The notes under the pieces were generated by a model. The model saw only the letters and a program-made list of their open reading frames with translations. It made no database searches and was not told where the DNA came from. DNA of 64,000 bases from Sinomonas sp. R1AF57 (GTDB lineage: Bacteria > Actinomycetota > Actinomycetes > Actinomycetales > Micrococcaceae): contig NZ_CP022463.1 of assembly GCF_002224485.1 (NCBI RefSeq), positions 2,896,205-2,960,204 of the forward strand, written 5' to 3'. This document shows positions 9,095 to 63,231 of this stretch, in pieces (positions within the stretch are counted from its first letter, which is position 1; each line of letters starts with the position of its first letter). The position numbers and the translations under genes were made by a program.

Positions 9095-9115
9095 TCCCCT
9101 ACCCCGCCCCTTAGC

Positions 9116-9422
9116 GTTTCGGGTACAGCAGATTCCCTCCCGAACCGTTTCGGGTACGGGTCTTCACTCCCCCAGCCGTTTCGGGTACAGGTCTTCGTTC
9201 GCCTCTGCTCAACGGGTACACGACGCACGACGCCGCGGCCTCGCTCCGTGTGGTGAGCTCACCCGCCCAGGCGTCCCGGCGGCGTCGCACGCCAGACCTT
9301 CGAGAGGTGCGTGCCGGCGCAACCGGGTCGGCCCGGGCGCAGATTAGCTGTACCCGAGACGCCCCAGACCGGGATTAGCTGTACCCGAAACGCCATGAGG
9401 GCAGATTAGATGTACCCGAAAC
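9116..9422. repeat. 31-nt phased repeat array, locus C (3 forward, 3 inverted units)
   Basis: GTTTCGGGTAC begins at 9116, 9147 and 9178, and a CGGGTAC remnant falls in phase at 9213. After a gap without recognisable genes, the inverted core GTACCCGA(A/G)AC begins at 9350, 9381 and 9412. All spacings are exactly 31 nt. The last unit abuts the stop codon of the next gene. This array accounts for the stretch 9095-9423; I see nothing coding in it. Confidence 0.87.
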
Positions 9423-9423
9423 G

Positions 9424-16660: not shown

Positions 16661-16690
16661 TTCTGCGTCCCGGCGCCCTGCCCCTCCGCC

Positions 16691-16907
16691 GAAGTCACCC
16701 CGTGTGCTGCCGAAGTCACCCCCTCTGGCGCCGAAGTCACCCCCTCTGGCGCCGAAGTCACCCCGTGTGCGGCCGAAGTCACCCCCTGCCGCGCCCACGT
16801 CACGCCAGGGTGCCAGCAGCCACTCCAAAGCACGAGGTGACCTCGACACCACACCCGGTGACCTCGGCGGGACGCGGGGTGACCTCGGCGGGACGCGGGG
16901 CTCAGAA
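16691..16907. repeat. 21-nt phased repeat array, locus 1 (forward 6, inverted 3-4 units)
   Basis: GAAGTCACCCC begins at 16691, 16712, 16733, 16754 and 16775, and a degraded copy falls in phase at 16796. The inverted form (G/C)GGTGACCTC follows at 16834, 16855 and 16876, with a remnant at 16897. Every spacing within each group is exactly 21 nt. Together with the terminator and operator, it fills 16590-17055. No gene is supported there. Confidence 0.87.
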
Positions 16908-34579: not shown

Positions 34580-34675
34580 GGGGTGACCTCGGCTGCCACA
34601 CGGGGTGACCTCGCCGCCACACGGGGTGACCTCGGCGCCACACGGGGTGACCTCGGCGTCACACGGGGTGACTTC
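34580..34675. repeat. 21-nt phased repeat array, locus 2 (one orientation)
   Basis: GGGGTGACCTC begins at 34580, 34602, 34623, 34644 and, as GGGGTGACTTC, at 34665. Spacings are 22, 21, 21 and 21 nt. The array lies just before the DUF4031-HD gene and would form its leader if the promoter is upstream. Confidence 0.83.
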
Positions 34676-34699
34676 GGCGGCGGTGGGATGCTGGATGGC

Positions 34700-58368: not shown

Positions 58369-60630
58369 GTGCCCTCCGCGCACCACGGCCCGGCGCGCAC
58401 CCCGGCCGTCATCGCCGTCGACGGCCGCTCCGGCGCCGGGAAGACCTCCCTCGCCGTAGAACTGGCCGCGGCGCTCCGCACCCACCGCACGGTGGCGCTC
58501 GTGCACCTCGAGGACGTCTACCCCGGCTGGGACGGCCTTGCGGCCGGGATCGAGCGCTGCGCAGCCGGGATCCTGGCGCCGCTGAGGCGCGGCGAGGCCG
58601 CCAGATGGCGCGCGTGGGACTGGGCTGCCGGCATCGACGGCGAGGAGCGGGTCACCGAGCCGGCCGACGTCGTCGTGCTCGAGGGGGTGGGCGCGGGCGC
58701 GGCACGGCTCCGCGCGTTCTGCGACGCGGTTGTGTGGGTCGAGGCCGAGGCCGCGGAGCGCAAGCGCCGCGCGCTCGAGCGCGACGGCGAGACGTACGCC
58801 CCGCACTGGGACCGCTGGGCGGCGCAGGAGGACGTGTGGCTCGCGGACGACGACGTGCGCGCGGCTGCCGCGGTCGTCGTCGGGAGCGCTGGGGGCACCC
58901 CCGACCGGCCCGAAGGGTCCACCGAGCAGGTCCTGGCCGCCCTGACCGAGCTGCCGGCCCTCCGCGACCTGCTGGCACCGGAGCGCTCCGAGCGGGAGTC
59001 CGCGGGCGTCGTCGTGCGCCGGGTGCCGGCCAGGCCCGATGCCGAGCGGCTCTTCGCGGAGCTCTTCGGGGACTCGGAGCACGCGGTCTGGCTCGACGCC
59101 TCTGACGCCGAAGTCACCCCGTCTGACGCCGAAGTCACCCCCACTGGCGCCGAGATCACCCCGTCTGACGCCGACGTCACCCCGTCTGACGCCGAAGTCA
59201 CCCCGTCCGGGCGTCACGCCCGCCCGCGCAGCCGCTTCAGCATCATGGCCGACGACGGCGGTCAGCTCGGCCGCCGCATGGCCCACCGGCGTGGAACCAA
59301 CGAAGTGGTGTTCGGCCCCGCGACGCCCACGCCCGTCACGGCCACCTTCCCCAGCCCGTTCTTCCGCTGGCTCGACACCGCGTGGGGCCACGCGACCGCG
59401 CCGGCCGTGCCGGATCTCGATTGCGGCTTCGCGCTGGGCTGGCTCGGCTACCTCGGCTACGAACTCAAACGCGAGTGCGGGGGCACCGACGTCGACGCAG
59501 GCCTCCCCGATGCCCAGCTCCTCTTCGCGGCGCGGGCCGTAGTCCTTGACCACGCGAACGGGGAAGTCTGGGTCCTGGCCCTCGAGTCCTCCGATGCGGG
59601 CTCGTGGATCGACAGAGCATCGGCCGCCATTGACGCCGGCACCGACGGGGTGACCTCGGCACCACACGGGGTGACCTCGGCGCCACACGGGGTGACCTCG
59701 ACACCACACCAGGTGACCTCGGCGCCGGTGTTCGCGGCGCGGGACTCCGCCGCGGCCTACATGGCGAAGGTCAGCGCCGCCCAGGCCGAGATCGCCGAGG
59801 GCAACACCTACGAGGTCTGCCTCACCACCACTCTGGAAGCCACGCTCCCAGGAGGCGGCGGCACCCCCGGCGGCCAGACCGCCGTCGTGCCCCTCGACAC
59901 GTACCGCGCGCTCCGGCGCCGCAGCCCGGCCCCGTTCGCGGCCTTCGCGCGGTTCGGCGGCCTCAGCATCGCGAGCACGTCTCCGGAACGCTTCCTGGCC
60001 CTCGCGGCCGACGGCGCCCTCCGCGCCGAGCCGATCAAGGGCACCCGACGCCGCCGGCCGGGTGCGAGCGCGGAGGAAGACGCCGGCGTCGTGCGCGAGC
60101 TCGCCGCAAACCCGAAGGACCGCGCGGAGAACCTCATGATCGTCGACCTGCTGCGCAACGACCTGAGCCACCACGCCGTGCCGGGGTCGGTGGGGGTGTC
60201 GCGGCTGTTCGCGGTGGAGTCGTACGCGACGGTGCACCAGCTCGTCAGCACGATCGACGCACGCCTGCGGCCCGGCGCCTCGCGGGCGGAGGCGGTCGCA
60301 GCCGCCTTCCCGCCCGGTTCGATGACGGGCGCGCCGAAGATCAGCACGATGGAGATCCTCGACCGCCTCGAAGCCGGGCCACGCGGCGTGTACTCGGGCG
60401 CGATCGGCTACTTCTCCCGCACGGGCGCCGCGGACCTGTCCGTGGTGATCCGCACCCTCGTCATGGAGCACACCGATGCGCGAGCCGCGCACGACGGCGC
60501 CACGCGCCTCACGCTCGGGGTGGGCGGCGCCGTCGTGGCAGACTCCGACCCGGCCGACGAGTACGAGGAGATCCGCACAAAGGCCTTCGCGGTCCTGGAC
60601 ACCCTCGGCTCGGTGTTCCCGGCCTCCTGA
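58369..60630 (+). CDS. pabB: P-loop kinase domain fused to aminodeoxychorismate synthase component I
   Basis: The 753-residue fusion protein starts at a GTG. Residues 1-230 form a uridine-kinase-like P-loop domain (VDGRSGAGKT at 17-26). The rest resembles PabB, which makes 4-amino-4-deoxychorismate from chorismate for folate synthesis. It has the catalytic lysine in EPIKGTRR and the PPGSMTGAPK motif. No PabA-type amidotransferase domain is included. Two in-frame 21-nt repeat arrays encode DAEVTPS-type and GVTSAPH-type repeats at about residues 247-282 and 427-452, between recognisable domains. pabC lies downstream at 62152. Confidence 0.85.
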   Translation: MPSAHHGPARTPAVIAVDGRSGAGKTSLAVELAAALRTHRTVALVHLEDVYPGWDGLAAGIERCAAGILAPLRRGEAARWRAWDWAAGIDGEERVTEPADVVVLEGVGAGAARLRAFCDAVVWVEAEAAERKRRALERDGETYAPHWDRWAAQEDVWLADDDVRAAAAVVVGSAGGTPDRPEGSTEQVLAALTELPALRDLLAPERSERESAGVVVRRVPARPDAERLFAELFGDSEHAVWLDASDAEVTPSDAEVTPTGAEITPSDADVTPSDAEVTPSGRHARPRSRFSIMADDGGQLGRRMAHRRGTNEVVFGPATPTPVTATFPSPFFRWLDTAWGHATAPAVPDLDCGFALGWLGYLGYELKRECGGTDVDAGLPDAQLLFAARAVVLDHANGEVWVLALESSDAGSWIDRASAAIDAGTDGVTSAPHGVTSAPHGVTSTPHQVTSAPVFAARDSAAAYMAKVSAAQAEIAEGNTYEVCLTTTLEATLPGGGGTPGGQTAVVPLDTYRALRRRSPAPFAAFARFGGLSIASTSPERFLALAADGALRAEPIKGTRRRRPGASAEEDAGVVRELAANPKDRAENLMIVDLLRNDLSHHAVPGSVGVSRLFAVESYATVHQLVSTIDARLRPGASRAEAVAAAFPPGSMTGAPKISTMEILDRLEAGPRGVYSGAIGYFSRTGAADLSVVIRTLVMEHTDARAAHDGATRLTLGVGGAVVADSDPADEYEEIRTKAFAVLDTLGSVFPAS
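59110..59204. repeat. 21-nt phased repeat array, locus 3a (inside the pabB fusion gene)
   Basis: GA(A/G)(G/A)TCACCCC begins at 59110, 59131, 59152, 59173 and 59194, exactly 21 nt apart. In frame it encodes five copies of a DAEVTPS-like heptad between the P-loop domain and the PabB part. Confidence 0.87.
59647..59720. repeat. 21-nt phased repeat array, locus 3b (inverted, inside the pabB fusion gene)
   Basis: GGGGTGACCTC begins at 59647, 59668 and 59689, and CAGGTGACCTC at 59710. It is in inverted orientation to locus 3a and encodes GVTSAPH-like heptads just before the chorismate-binding domain. Confidence 0.87.
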
Positions 60631-62151: not shown

Positions 62152-63066
62152 ATGACCTCCACCGTGCTGACGTTCCTCGATCCAGCGTTTCCCGACGGGC
62201 GCGTGGAGGACGCCACGAAGCCGCAGCTGTTCGCGACCGACCTCGGGGCCACCCGCGGCGACGGCGTGTTCGAGACGCTGCTCGTGATGGACGGCCACGT
62301 CCGCAAGCTCCCCGCGCACCTGCGCCGGCTCGCGTCCAGCGCCCGGCTGCTCGAGCTCGACGTGCCGGACCACGAGGCCTGGGAGCGGGCCATCATGACG
62401 GCCCTGGACGAGTACCAGCGGACCGTGGCCCCCCTGCAGGAGGTGGTCGTGAAGCTCGTGGCGACGCGCGGCGTCGAGGGCGCCCATGCGCCCACCTGCT
62501 GGGTCGCGGCCTCGGCCCCGGCGCCGGCGGCGAAGCGGCAGCGCGAGGAGGGCATCGACGTCCTGCTCCTGGACCGCGGCTACGACTCCGACGTGGCCGA
62601 ACGCGCGCCCTGGCTCCTCCTCGGGGCGAAGACGCTCTCCTACGCGGTGAACATGGCGGCGCTGCGCTACGCACACGCGCACGGTGCCGACGACGTCATC
62701 TTCACCTCCGAGGACGGCAAGGTGCTTGAGGGTCCGACGTCCACGGTCCTCATCGCGCACGCCGAGAAGGACGACGCCGGCCGCGCCACCCTCCGCCGAC
62801 TGGTCACCCCACAGCTCGATTCGGGGATCCTCCCGGGAACGTCGCAGGGGGCGCTCTTCGCGGCGGCCAAGGAGGCCGGGTGGGAGCTCGGCTACGGGCC
62901 GCTCGAGCCGGACGACCTGTTCGACGCCGACGCCGTCTGGCTCATCTCCTCGGTTCGGCTCCTGACACCTGTGAACCACGTCGACGGGAAGCCGATCGGA
63001 TCGGACCCCGAGCTCGCCAAGGCGCTGACCGCCGAACTCGCGGGGCTCTTCGACGCGATCGCGTAG
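62152..63066 (+). CDS. pabC: Aminodeoxychorismate lyase (class IV aminotransferase fold)
   Basis: It converts aminodeoxychorismate to 4-aminobenzoate and pyruvate with PLP. The 304-residue protein has the fold-type IV pattern: GATRGDGVFETLLV near residue 30, the PLP lysine in LGAKTLSYAVNMAAL near 162 and EGPTSTVL near 197. Its assignment as PabC rather than a branched-chain or D-amino-acid transaminase is supported by the nearby pabB. The stop is 26 nt before the 21-nt repeat array. Confidence 0.85.
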   Translation: MTSTVLTFLDPAFPDGRVEDATKPQLFATDLGATRGDGVFETLLVMDGHVRKLPAHLRRLASSARLLELDVPDHEAWERAIMTALDEYQRTVAPLQEVVVKLVATRGVEGAHAPTCWVAASAPAPAAKRQREEGIDVLLLDRGYDSDVAERAPWLLLGAKTLSYAVNMAALRYAHAHGADDVIFTSEDGKVLEGPTSTVLIAHAEKDDAGRATLRRLVTPQLDSGILPGTSQGALFAAAKEAGWELGYGPLEPDDLFDADAVWLISSVRLLTPVNHVDGKPIGSDPELAKALTAELAGLFDAIA

Positions 63067-63092: not shown

Positions 63093-63124
63093 GGGGTGAC
63101 CTCGGCGCCACACGGGGTGACCTC
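63093..63124. repeat. 21-nt phased repeat, locus 4 (two units)
   Basis: GGGGTGACCTC begins at 63093 and 63114, 21 nt apart, between pabC and mmsA. The flank GGCGCCACAC is also shared with loci 2 and 3b. Confidence 0.78.
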
Positions 63125-63231
63125 GGCGGGCTGGCTCTGGAAATTAGTTGGAAGTCCGAGTATCTTCGGTCTCGAGATGACTTGGATCACACATCCCTGA
63201 GCAAGCCCACCCCTGAGCAAAGGAGCTCTCC

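Follow-up and report, generated by a model that had tools for sequence, protein, structure and literature searches.

A family of directional 21-nt repeat arrays with species dialects lies between and inside genes in Sinomonas

The DNA analyzed here, referred to as the window, is a stretch of 64,000 nucleotides from the genome of Sinomonas sp. R1AF57 (G000; single contig, 3,939,870 bases). ORF calls and Pfam placed in its right part a plus-strand gene (58369..60630) for a P-loop-like/PabB fusion protein of 753 residues, counted from GTG58369, which was our choice of start codon. The product matched Chorismate_bind (E 5.3e-77, residues 462-738) and Anth_synt_I_N (E 1.4e-6, residues 347-401). A preliminary description of the sequence had named the gene kinase-PabB; the kinase part of that name has as its sole basis a P-loop-like stretch, GRSGAGKTS, visible in the translation, and Pfam gave no kinase match in the N-terminus. 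Two tandem arrays were located in this gene by TRF and a core scan. Array 1 (59107..59204, minus strand, residues 247-277, linker 1) contained five 21-nt units that read GCCGARGTCACC... in the gene sense, with minus-strand core starts at 59107, 59128, 59149, 59170, and 59191. Array 2 (59647..59723, plus strand, residues 428-451, linker 2) contained four 21-nt units, GTGACCTCGGC in the sense direction, with plus-strand core starts at 59647, 59668, 59689, and 59710. TRF reported a period of 21 with 5.1 and 4.2 copies, respectively. Both arrays are open in the PabB frame and encode AEVTPSD-type (array 1) and GVTSAPH-type (array 2) heptads. The core scan, TRF, and the ORF therefore bore out the five units in one orientation and four in the other that had been described within a single open frame, and the open frame and heptad reading agree that 21 nt, equal to seven codons, lets units join without a frameshift. 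The proposed location between domains was upheld in part: array 2 lies between the Anth_synt_I_N and Chorismate_bind matches, and the arrays fall in segments to which a structure model gave pLDDT <50 (residues 247-287 and 428-449), but the model is weak (mean pLDDT 64.9), with further segments below 50, catalytic ones among them.

The window contained 29 matches to GGGGTGACYTCGGC at up to two mismatches, compared with a mean of 3.66 and a highest value of 9 in 100 shuffles; a chance origin is excluded. Copies outside genes, previously noted near 16691 and 34580, are real and begin at 16688 and 34580. The former is an intergenic array of six units in an 11-mer scan (16688..16803, minus strand), the left member of a minus-plus pair whose right member has three units (16837..16889, plus strand), and the latter has about five units (34580..34679, plus strand). 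The plus partner at 16837-16889 and a two-unit intergenic array at 63096 (63093..63127, plus strand), 3' of the gene at 62152-63066, were additions to the earlier list. In tight minus-plus pairs, as at 16.7 kb of the window and in other convergent gaps of G000, G003, and G014, the inner gap was near-palindromic, and from its sequence a whole tight pair could fold as one long hairpin. Rfam gave no match at or above the gathering score across the whole window. A different tandem family, with a period of 31 and GGGTAC-containing units (TCGGGTACGCC / TTTCGGGTACAG and complement), was present at 309-392, 9115-9196, and 9339-9423.

Genome-wide, the 12-mer GGTGACYTCGGC occurred 181 times in G000 (3.94 Mb), and its reversed-pattern control did not occur. 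The 52 stretches of G000 examined (the window plus 51 from the motif matches listed, with genes assigned by an in-house scorer of codon usage that had been trained on the window) contained at least 62 arrays with 262 units, a count from which arrays with other flanking letters may be absent; arrays of two or more units were present in 44 of the 52. The repeat forms a family dispersed at the DNA level, with arrays near gene ends and in frame in linkers, and its in-gene and intergenic copies confirm what had been proposed in this respect. Each 21-nt unit consists of a variable spacer (about 8 nt), a 5-nt dialect, and the 8-nt core AYYTCGGC, and ends in TCGGC. Split by contig coordinates rather than at a mapped origin, the first half of G000 had 10 minus and 9 plus arrays and the second half 19 and 24, so that no clear replichore bias of orientation was seen. 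Exact units made up 45 of 56 at the outermost position of G000 arrays, 35 of 56 at the innermost, and 77 of 138 in the middle, which is only suggestive of the outermost unit being the most perfect.

Twenty arrays in the G000 stretches lay in frame in 17 genes, 16 of which had a Pfam match. These hosts were the PabB gene, a lipoyl/E3-binding/acyltransferase E2 (arrays in both linkers), DNA polymerase III gamma/tau, a PP-loop (tilS-like) gene, MoeA, MazG, LigD, TsaE, AidB, an HrpA-like helicase, XdhC, an LUD protein, a phosphopantetheinyl transferase, a TetR regulator, a StiP protein, and a DUF4194 protein, which had arrays at its two ends; the L188 gene lacked a Pfam match, yet it was present with an array in G003, G011, and G002. 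Five genomes (G000, G003, G011, G007, and G002) together provided 54 in-gene arrays. Antisense-oriented arrays were in the AE frame (AExxx heptads) in 24 of 25 cases, and the 29 sense-oriented arrays comprised 20 in the VTSA frame (xTSAx; L154, counted here, reads mostly as GDLG), eight in the GDLG frame (GDLGx), and one in another frame. The consensus unit is stop-free in five of its six frames. In-gene arrays would survive because 21 nt equals seven codons, because most frames are open, and because selection keeps polar heptads. All 44 valine codons of sense arrays were GTG and all 44 of antisense arrays were GTC, compared with 40% and 56% in the genome background, and the rare threonine codon ACT made up 33% in arrays vs 3% elsewhere, shares that are partly circular since units were found by word with up to two mismatches. 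With the same circularity, in-gene units retain the DNA word at synonymous positions as well.

The DUF4194 gene of G000 (L182:1591-2499), so identified by a Pfam match on L182 and presumably with a JetB/MukE-like role, had two arrays, near the start and near the end, and the G007 gene that matches it (L323:2041-2994) had arrays of another dialect near both ends. Urease proteins of G007 (L331:2110-2243, assigned by eye) and G011 (L318:4812-4840, in an ORF with fused urease beta and alpha domains) had arrays near residues 115-119; the dialect of the L331 array was GGTG-like, though G007 is of CCCG type.

Neighboring arrays followed a strict order. A census of 126 stretches from the five genomes, in which orthologous loci were counted in more than one species, yielded 28 adjacent pairs at most 1.5 kb apart, of which 26 were minus-plus and two minus-minus, with no plus-minus or plus-plus pair. 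One minus-minus case had a single plus unit between its members, and the other looks like one interrupted array. G000 alone had 13 minus-plus pairs of 14, and the complete two-unit lists, read by eye, gave 5/5 in G010 and 4/4 in G014. This order, in which the ends face outward, holds inside genes too. Spacing ranged from 37 to 1154 bp, and the 14 close pairs of G000 exceeded the 1.65 expected from random placement (maximum 7 in 2,000 draws); single-orientation arrays were also common. Gaps with arrays (n = 75) were convergent in 41 cases, tandem in 25, and divergent in 9, compared with 30, 130, and 80 of the 240 gaps without arrays (convergent, Fisher p 7.6e-13). In convergent gaps, geometry makes the outer end face a 3' end, and the outer end was the nearer one in 30 of 37 single arrays (median 15 vs 108 nt). 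The same orientation toward a 3' end did not hold as a rule in tandem gaps (17/32).

The family is largely confined to the genus. The two-unit pattern AYYTCGGC-N13-AYYTCGGC had 103 matches in G000, 90 in G011, 75 in G003, 71 in G010, 53 in G014, 50 in G007, 42 in G002, 23 in G008, and 7 each in G012, G004, and G013, and it was nearly absent from G001 (3), G006 (2), G009 (2), and G005 (0). At least 23 matches were therefore found in 8 of 15 congeners, compared with 0-3 in each of 142 genomes from other genera of the family. The two-unit pattern separates the genus, whereas the single-motif count does so poorly, other genera having up to 45 matches (G090); beyond the family, where only the single word was counted, up to 45 matches were found. 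The array family is dispensable in G001, G005, G006, and G009, since these have essentially no matches. Sites shared with G000 amounted to 16 of 27 in G011, 13 of 21 in G003, 6 of 10 in G002, and 5 of 12 in G007, where a site counts as shared if it lies in, or within 400 bp of, a gene orthologous to one at an array site of G000; positions need not match, and some loci are counted twice. The expectation, our rough figure from about two neighbor genes per site rather than a formal null, is one or two of 27.

Alignment of PabB from 15 congeners with seven orthologues from other genera, with arrays called by eye, revealed a patchy distribution and differing unit numbers. Linker 1 had clear multi-unit arrays in two congeners (G000 and G008) and remnants of two or three degenerate units in G002, G004, and G013; linker 2 had clear arrays in four (G000, G003, G014, and G008) and a weak trace in G010. 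The array linked to PabB in G011 followed the gene instead of lying in a linker, and none of the seven orthologues from other genera had an array. The heptads are therefore not common to all PabB orthologues, which had been named as the observation that would make them an old protein feature. Clean edges, the other expectation, were not seen, as the linkers diverge in length and sequence. Unit number did change between relatives: G003 and G014, whose PabB loci share 98.2% identity across 4,911 aligned bases, differed by exactly 42 nt, or two units, in array 2 and by one unit (21 nt) at a second locus, and the E2 locus had no such gap, so that two of three distinct loci differed. Two linkers of E2 had AEV/AEM- and TSA/ISA-type heptads, some degenerate, in 11 of 15 congeners, and heptads of this type were lacking in G001, G005, G006, and G009. 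Unrelated 21-nt repeats occurred in the apparent E2 linker 1 of G005 (L232:2769-2832) and G006 (L233:1018-1102), where 21-nt expansion in linkers may be easy. The view of repeats freshly invading the PabB gene alone was not supported, since sister species share linker arrays and arrays stand at conserved places in many other genes; judged from these comparisons, the arrays appear to be an older, inherited family with a motif that differs between species.

The units of each species share a dialect, the five bases 5' of AYYTCGGC, across unrelated loci. Most units of G000, G003, G014, and G008 had GGGTG or a close variant of it. In G011, 122 of 136 units had CCCCC or ACCCC; in G007, 53 of 69 had CCCCG, GCCCG, or ACCCG; the 38 units of G002 were CCC-type and mixed, and G010 was CCCG-type. 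The choice of stretches by a GGTG word in G000 and G003 (29 stretches and L119 in the latter) favors the GGTG dialect there, and those of G011, G007, and G002 were picked by the dialect-blind two-unit pattern; among 18 listed of the 103 dialect-blind matches in G000, 17 had GGTGA. Orthologous coding arrays of E2, dnaX, mazG, the tilS-like gene, and the L188 protein had different dialects, and such differences often occurred in the same genes and frame. A two-protein tree nested the CCC-type G002 within the GGTG clade (support 0.89). Dialects were impure, with a GGTG array in the urease-like gene of G007, CCCG units in G003, G014, and G008, and a mixture in G002. Identity within and between intergenic arrays of G000 was 0.71 and 0.59 for the spacer, 0.90 and 0.90 for the dialect, and 0.93 and 0.91 for the core, the uniformity of which is partly circular. 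This contrast of dialect and spacer was weaker in G003, G007, and G002; between- vs within-array dialect identity was 0.76 vs 0.87 for intergenic arrays of G003 and 0.73 vs 0.93 for in-gene arrays of G007.

The observed dispersal, reading frames, pair order, dialects, and repeated occupation of the same genes are best explained, with moderate confidence, by a genus-restricted family of directional 21-nt arrays at inherited places, the dialect of which is kept by a trans-acting process at the DNA level. Between genes, these inherited places would be the gaps of convergent pairs; inside genes, they would be flexible linkers or tails. Whole units would be gained and lost, probably by slippage, selection would retain almost only frames that code for small, polar, disorder-prone heptads (AEVTP, VTSAP, and GDLGA), and nearby arrays would point away from each other. 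We favor something that acts in trans on the DNA motif and keeps the dialect in step, putatively a recognizing protein or biased conversion between arrays; the protein-level effect of in-gene arrays would be near neutral.

Neutral minisatellites have a substantial, though less than even, chance of being the whole explanation. Repeats of one origin would have dispersed by rare ectopic recombination, changed by slippage and gene conversion, and persisted where harmless, with neither a function nor a trans factor. This is consistent with the whole-unit length changes between the near-identical G003 and G014, the occupation of linkers, tails, and 3' gaps, the absence of the family from four congeners, and the unrelated repeats in the E2 linker of G005 and G006. 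Head-to-tail units that vary in number between close relatives are also typical of VNTRs; however, a VNTR unit is private to its locus, and here the same core and dialect recur at dozens of loci. Whole-unit conversion should level the spacer too, whereas G000 is uniform between arrays in dialect and core only, and the minus-plus order would be left without a reason. Since spacers diverge while the dialect is level in G000, word recognition fits better than the copying of whole arrays.

A more specific form of the trans-acting process is possible but tentative. The arrays would be directional sites for a trans-acting DNA-recognizing system of the genus, and a species-switched specificity would drag dozens of arrays with it, in-frame ones included. 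Linkers would then be rewritten by a DNA-level code, from AEVTP to AEVGS to AEMGA and from VTSAP to PTSAA to PISAA, and the outward pair order would be one component of its reading or looping of the DNA that lies between convergent genes.

A DNA-uptake or other recognition signal, that is, a species-specific DNA word read by a receptor, is unlikely. Species dialects of a dispersed word, inverted pairs in the gaps after genes, and copies inside genes, as outlined for the DUS of Neisseriaceae (PMC3630211), are all found here. On the other hand, the same account gives thousands of DUS per genome, compared with 181 exact words in 3.94 Mb, and 21-nt tandem arrays form no part of the DUS description as excerpted from it (PMC3630211).

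Slightly less probable still is a non-autonomous mobile element of REPIN or MITE type, in which a transposase would have moved an outward-facing pair. BIMEs are dispersed, inverted doublets in gaps between genes. The excerpted description of REPs and REPINs likewise has dispersed, typically inverted doublets between genes (PMC3116915), and pairs are frequent here, with 26 of 28 inverted. However, a REPIN has a short fixed spacing, whereas spacing here varies from 37 to 1154 bp, and wide pairs enclose native sequence, such as the middle of pabB and the E3-binding domain of E2. There is no short hairpin unit, the arrays are direct repeats with many in-gene copies, and the same genes are occupied across species. 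A RAYT transposase (Y1_Tnp, PF01797) was not matched in any of the 15 congeners (control positive in 5 of 14). The exact two-unit pattern, searched in its GGTG dialect, was not found in viral contigs, and a 141-base array query had no BLAST match in plasmids and phages with the low-complexity filter on. A protein-level feature, in which selection would act on the heptads as flexible linkers, with the DNA following suit, fits the strong frame preference and the low pLDDT at both arrays, but it is very improbable given the same units in gaps between genes, codon choice that tracks array orientation rather than genome habit (a partly circular measure), and a pair order alike in and out of genes.

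Two other known systems resemble the family in part. Rickettsia palindromic elements are outlined as palindromes of 105-146 bp with terminal inverted repeats, present in 19 reading frames (PMC2229807), and likewise constitute one dispersed family in gaps and in frame in conserved genes, here 17 in one genome; in contrast, the present arrays are 21-nt direct repeats with variable unit number and species dialects. Borg repeats, as far as excerpted, are tandem arrays in gaps and ORFs with in-frame unit lengths and disordered protein repeats, but their units are virtually all unique per genome (PMC9879509), whereas here one family of about 60 arrays keeps a period of exactly 21 nt both inside genes and between them. 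The Rickettsia elements, Borg repeats, REPINs, and DUS each share part of the picture, and each fails at least one defining feature tested or quoted. Among the results listed, literature searches gave no report of this family, though one could exist in a subscription paper, and the listed papers containing the motif words, judged by title and the start of the abstract, were not about bacterial repeats.

With one short DNA word that changes in step genome-wide and rewrites the linkers of unrelated conserved enzymes, these arrays amount to a natural experiment. They make testable the concerted evolution of dispersed bacterial repeats without a known transposase, the tolerance of a proteome for in-frame DNA, and whether a DNA-binding system can drive protein sequence, and the strict outward order of the pairs is easy to test.
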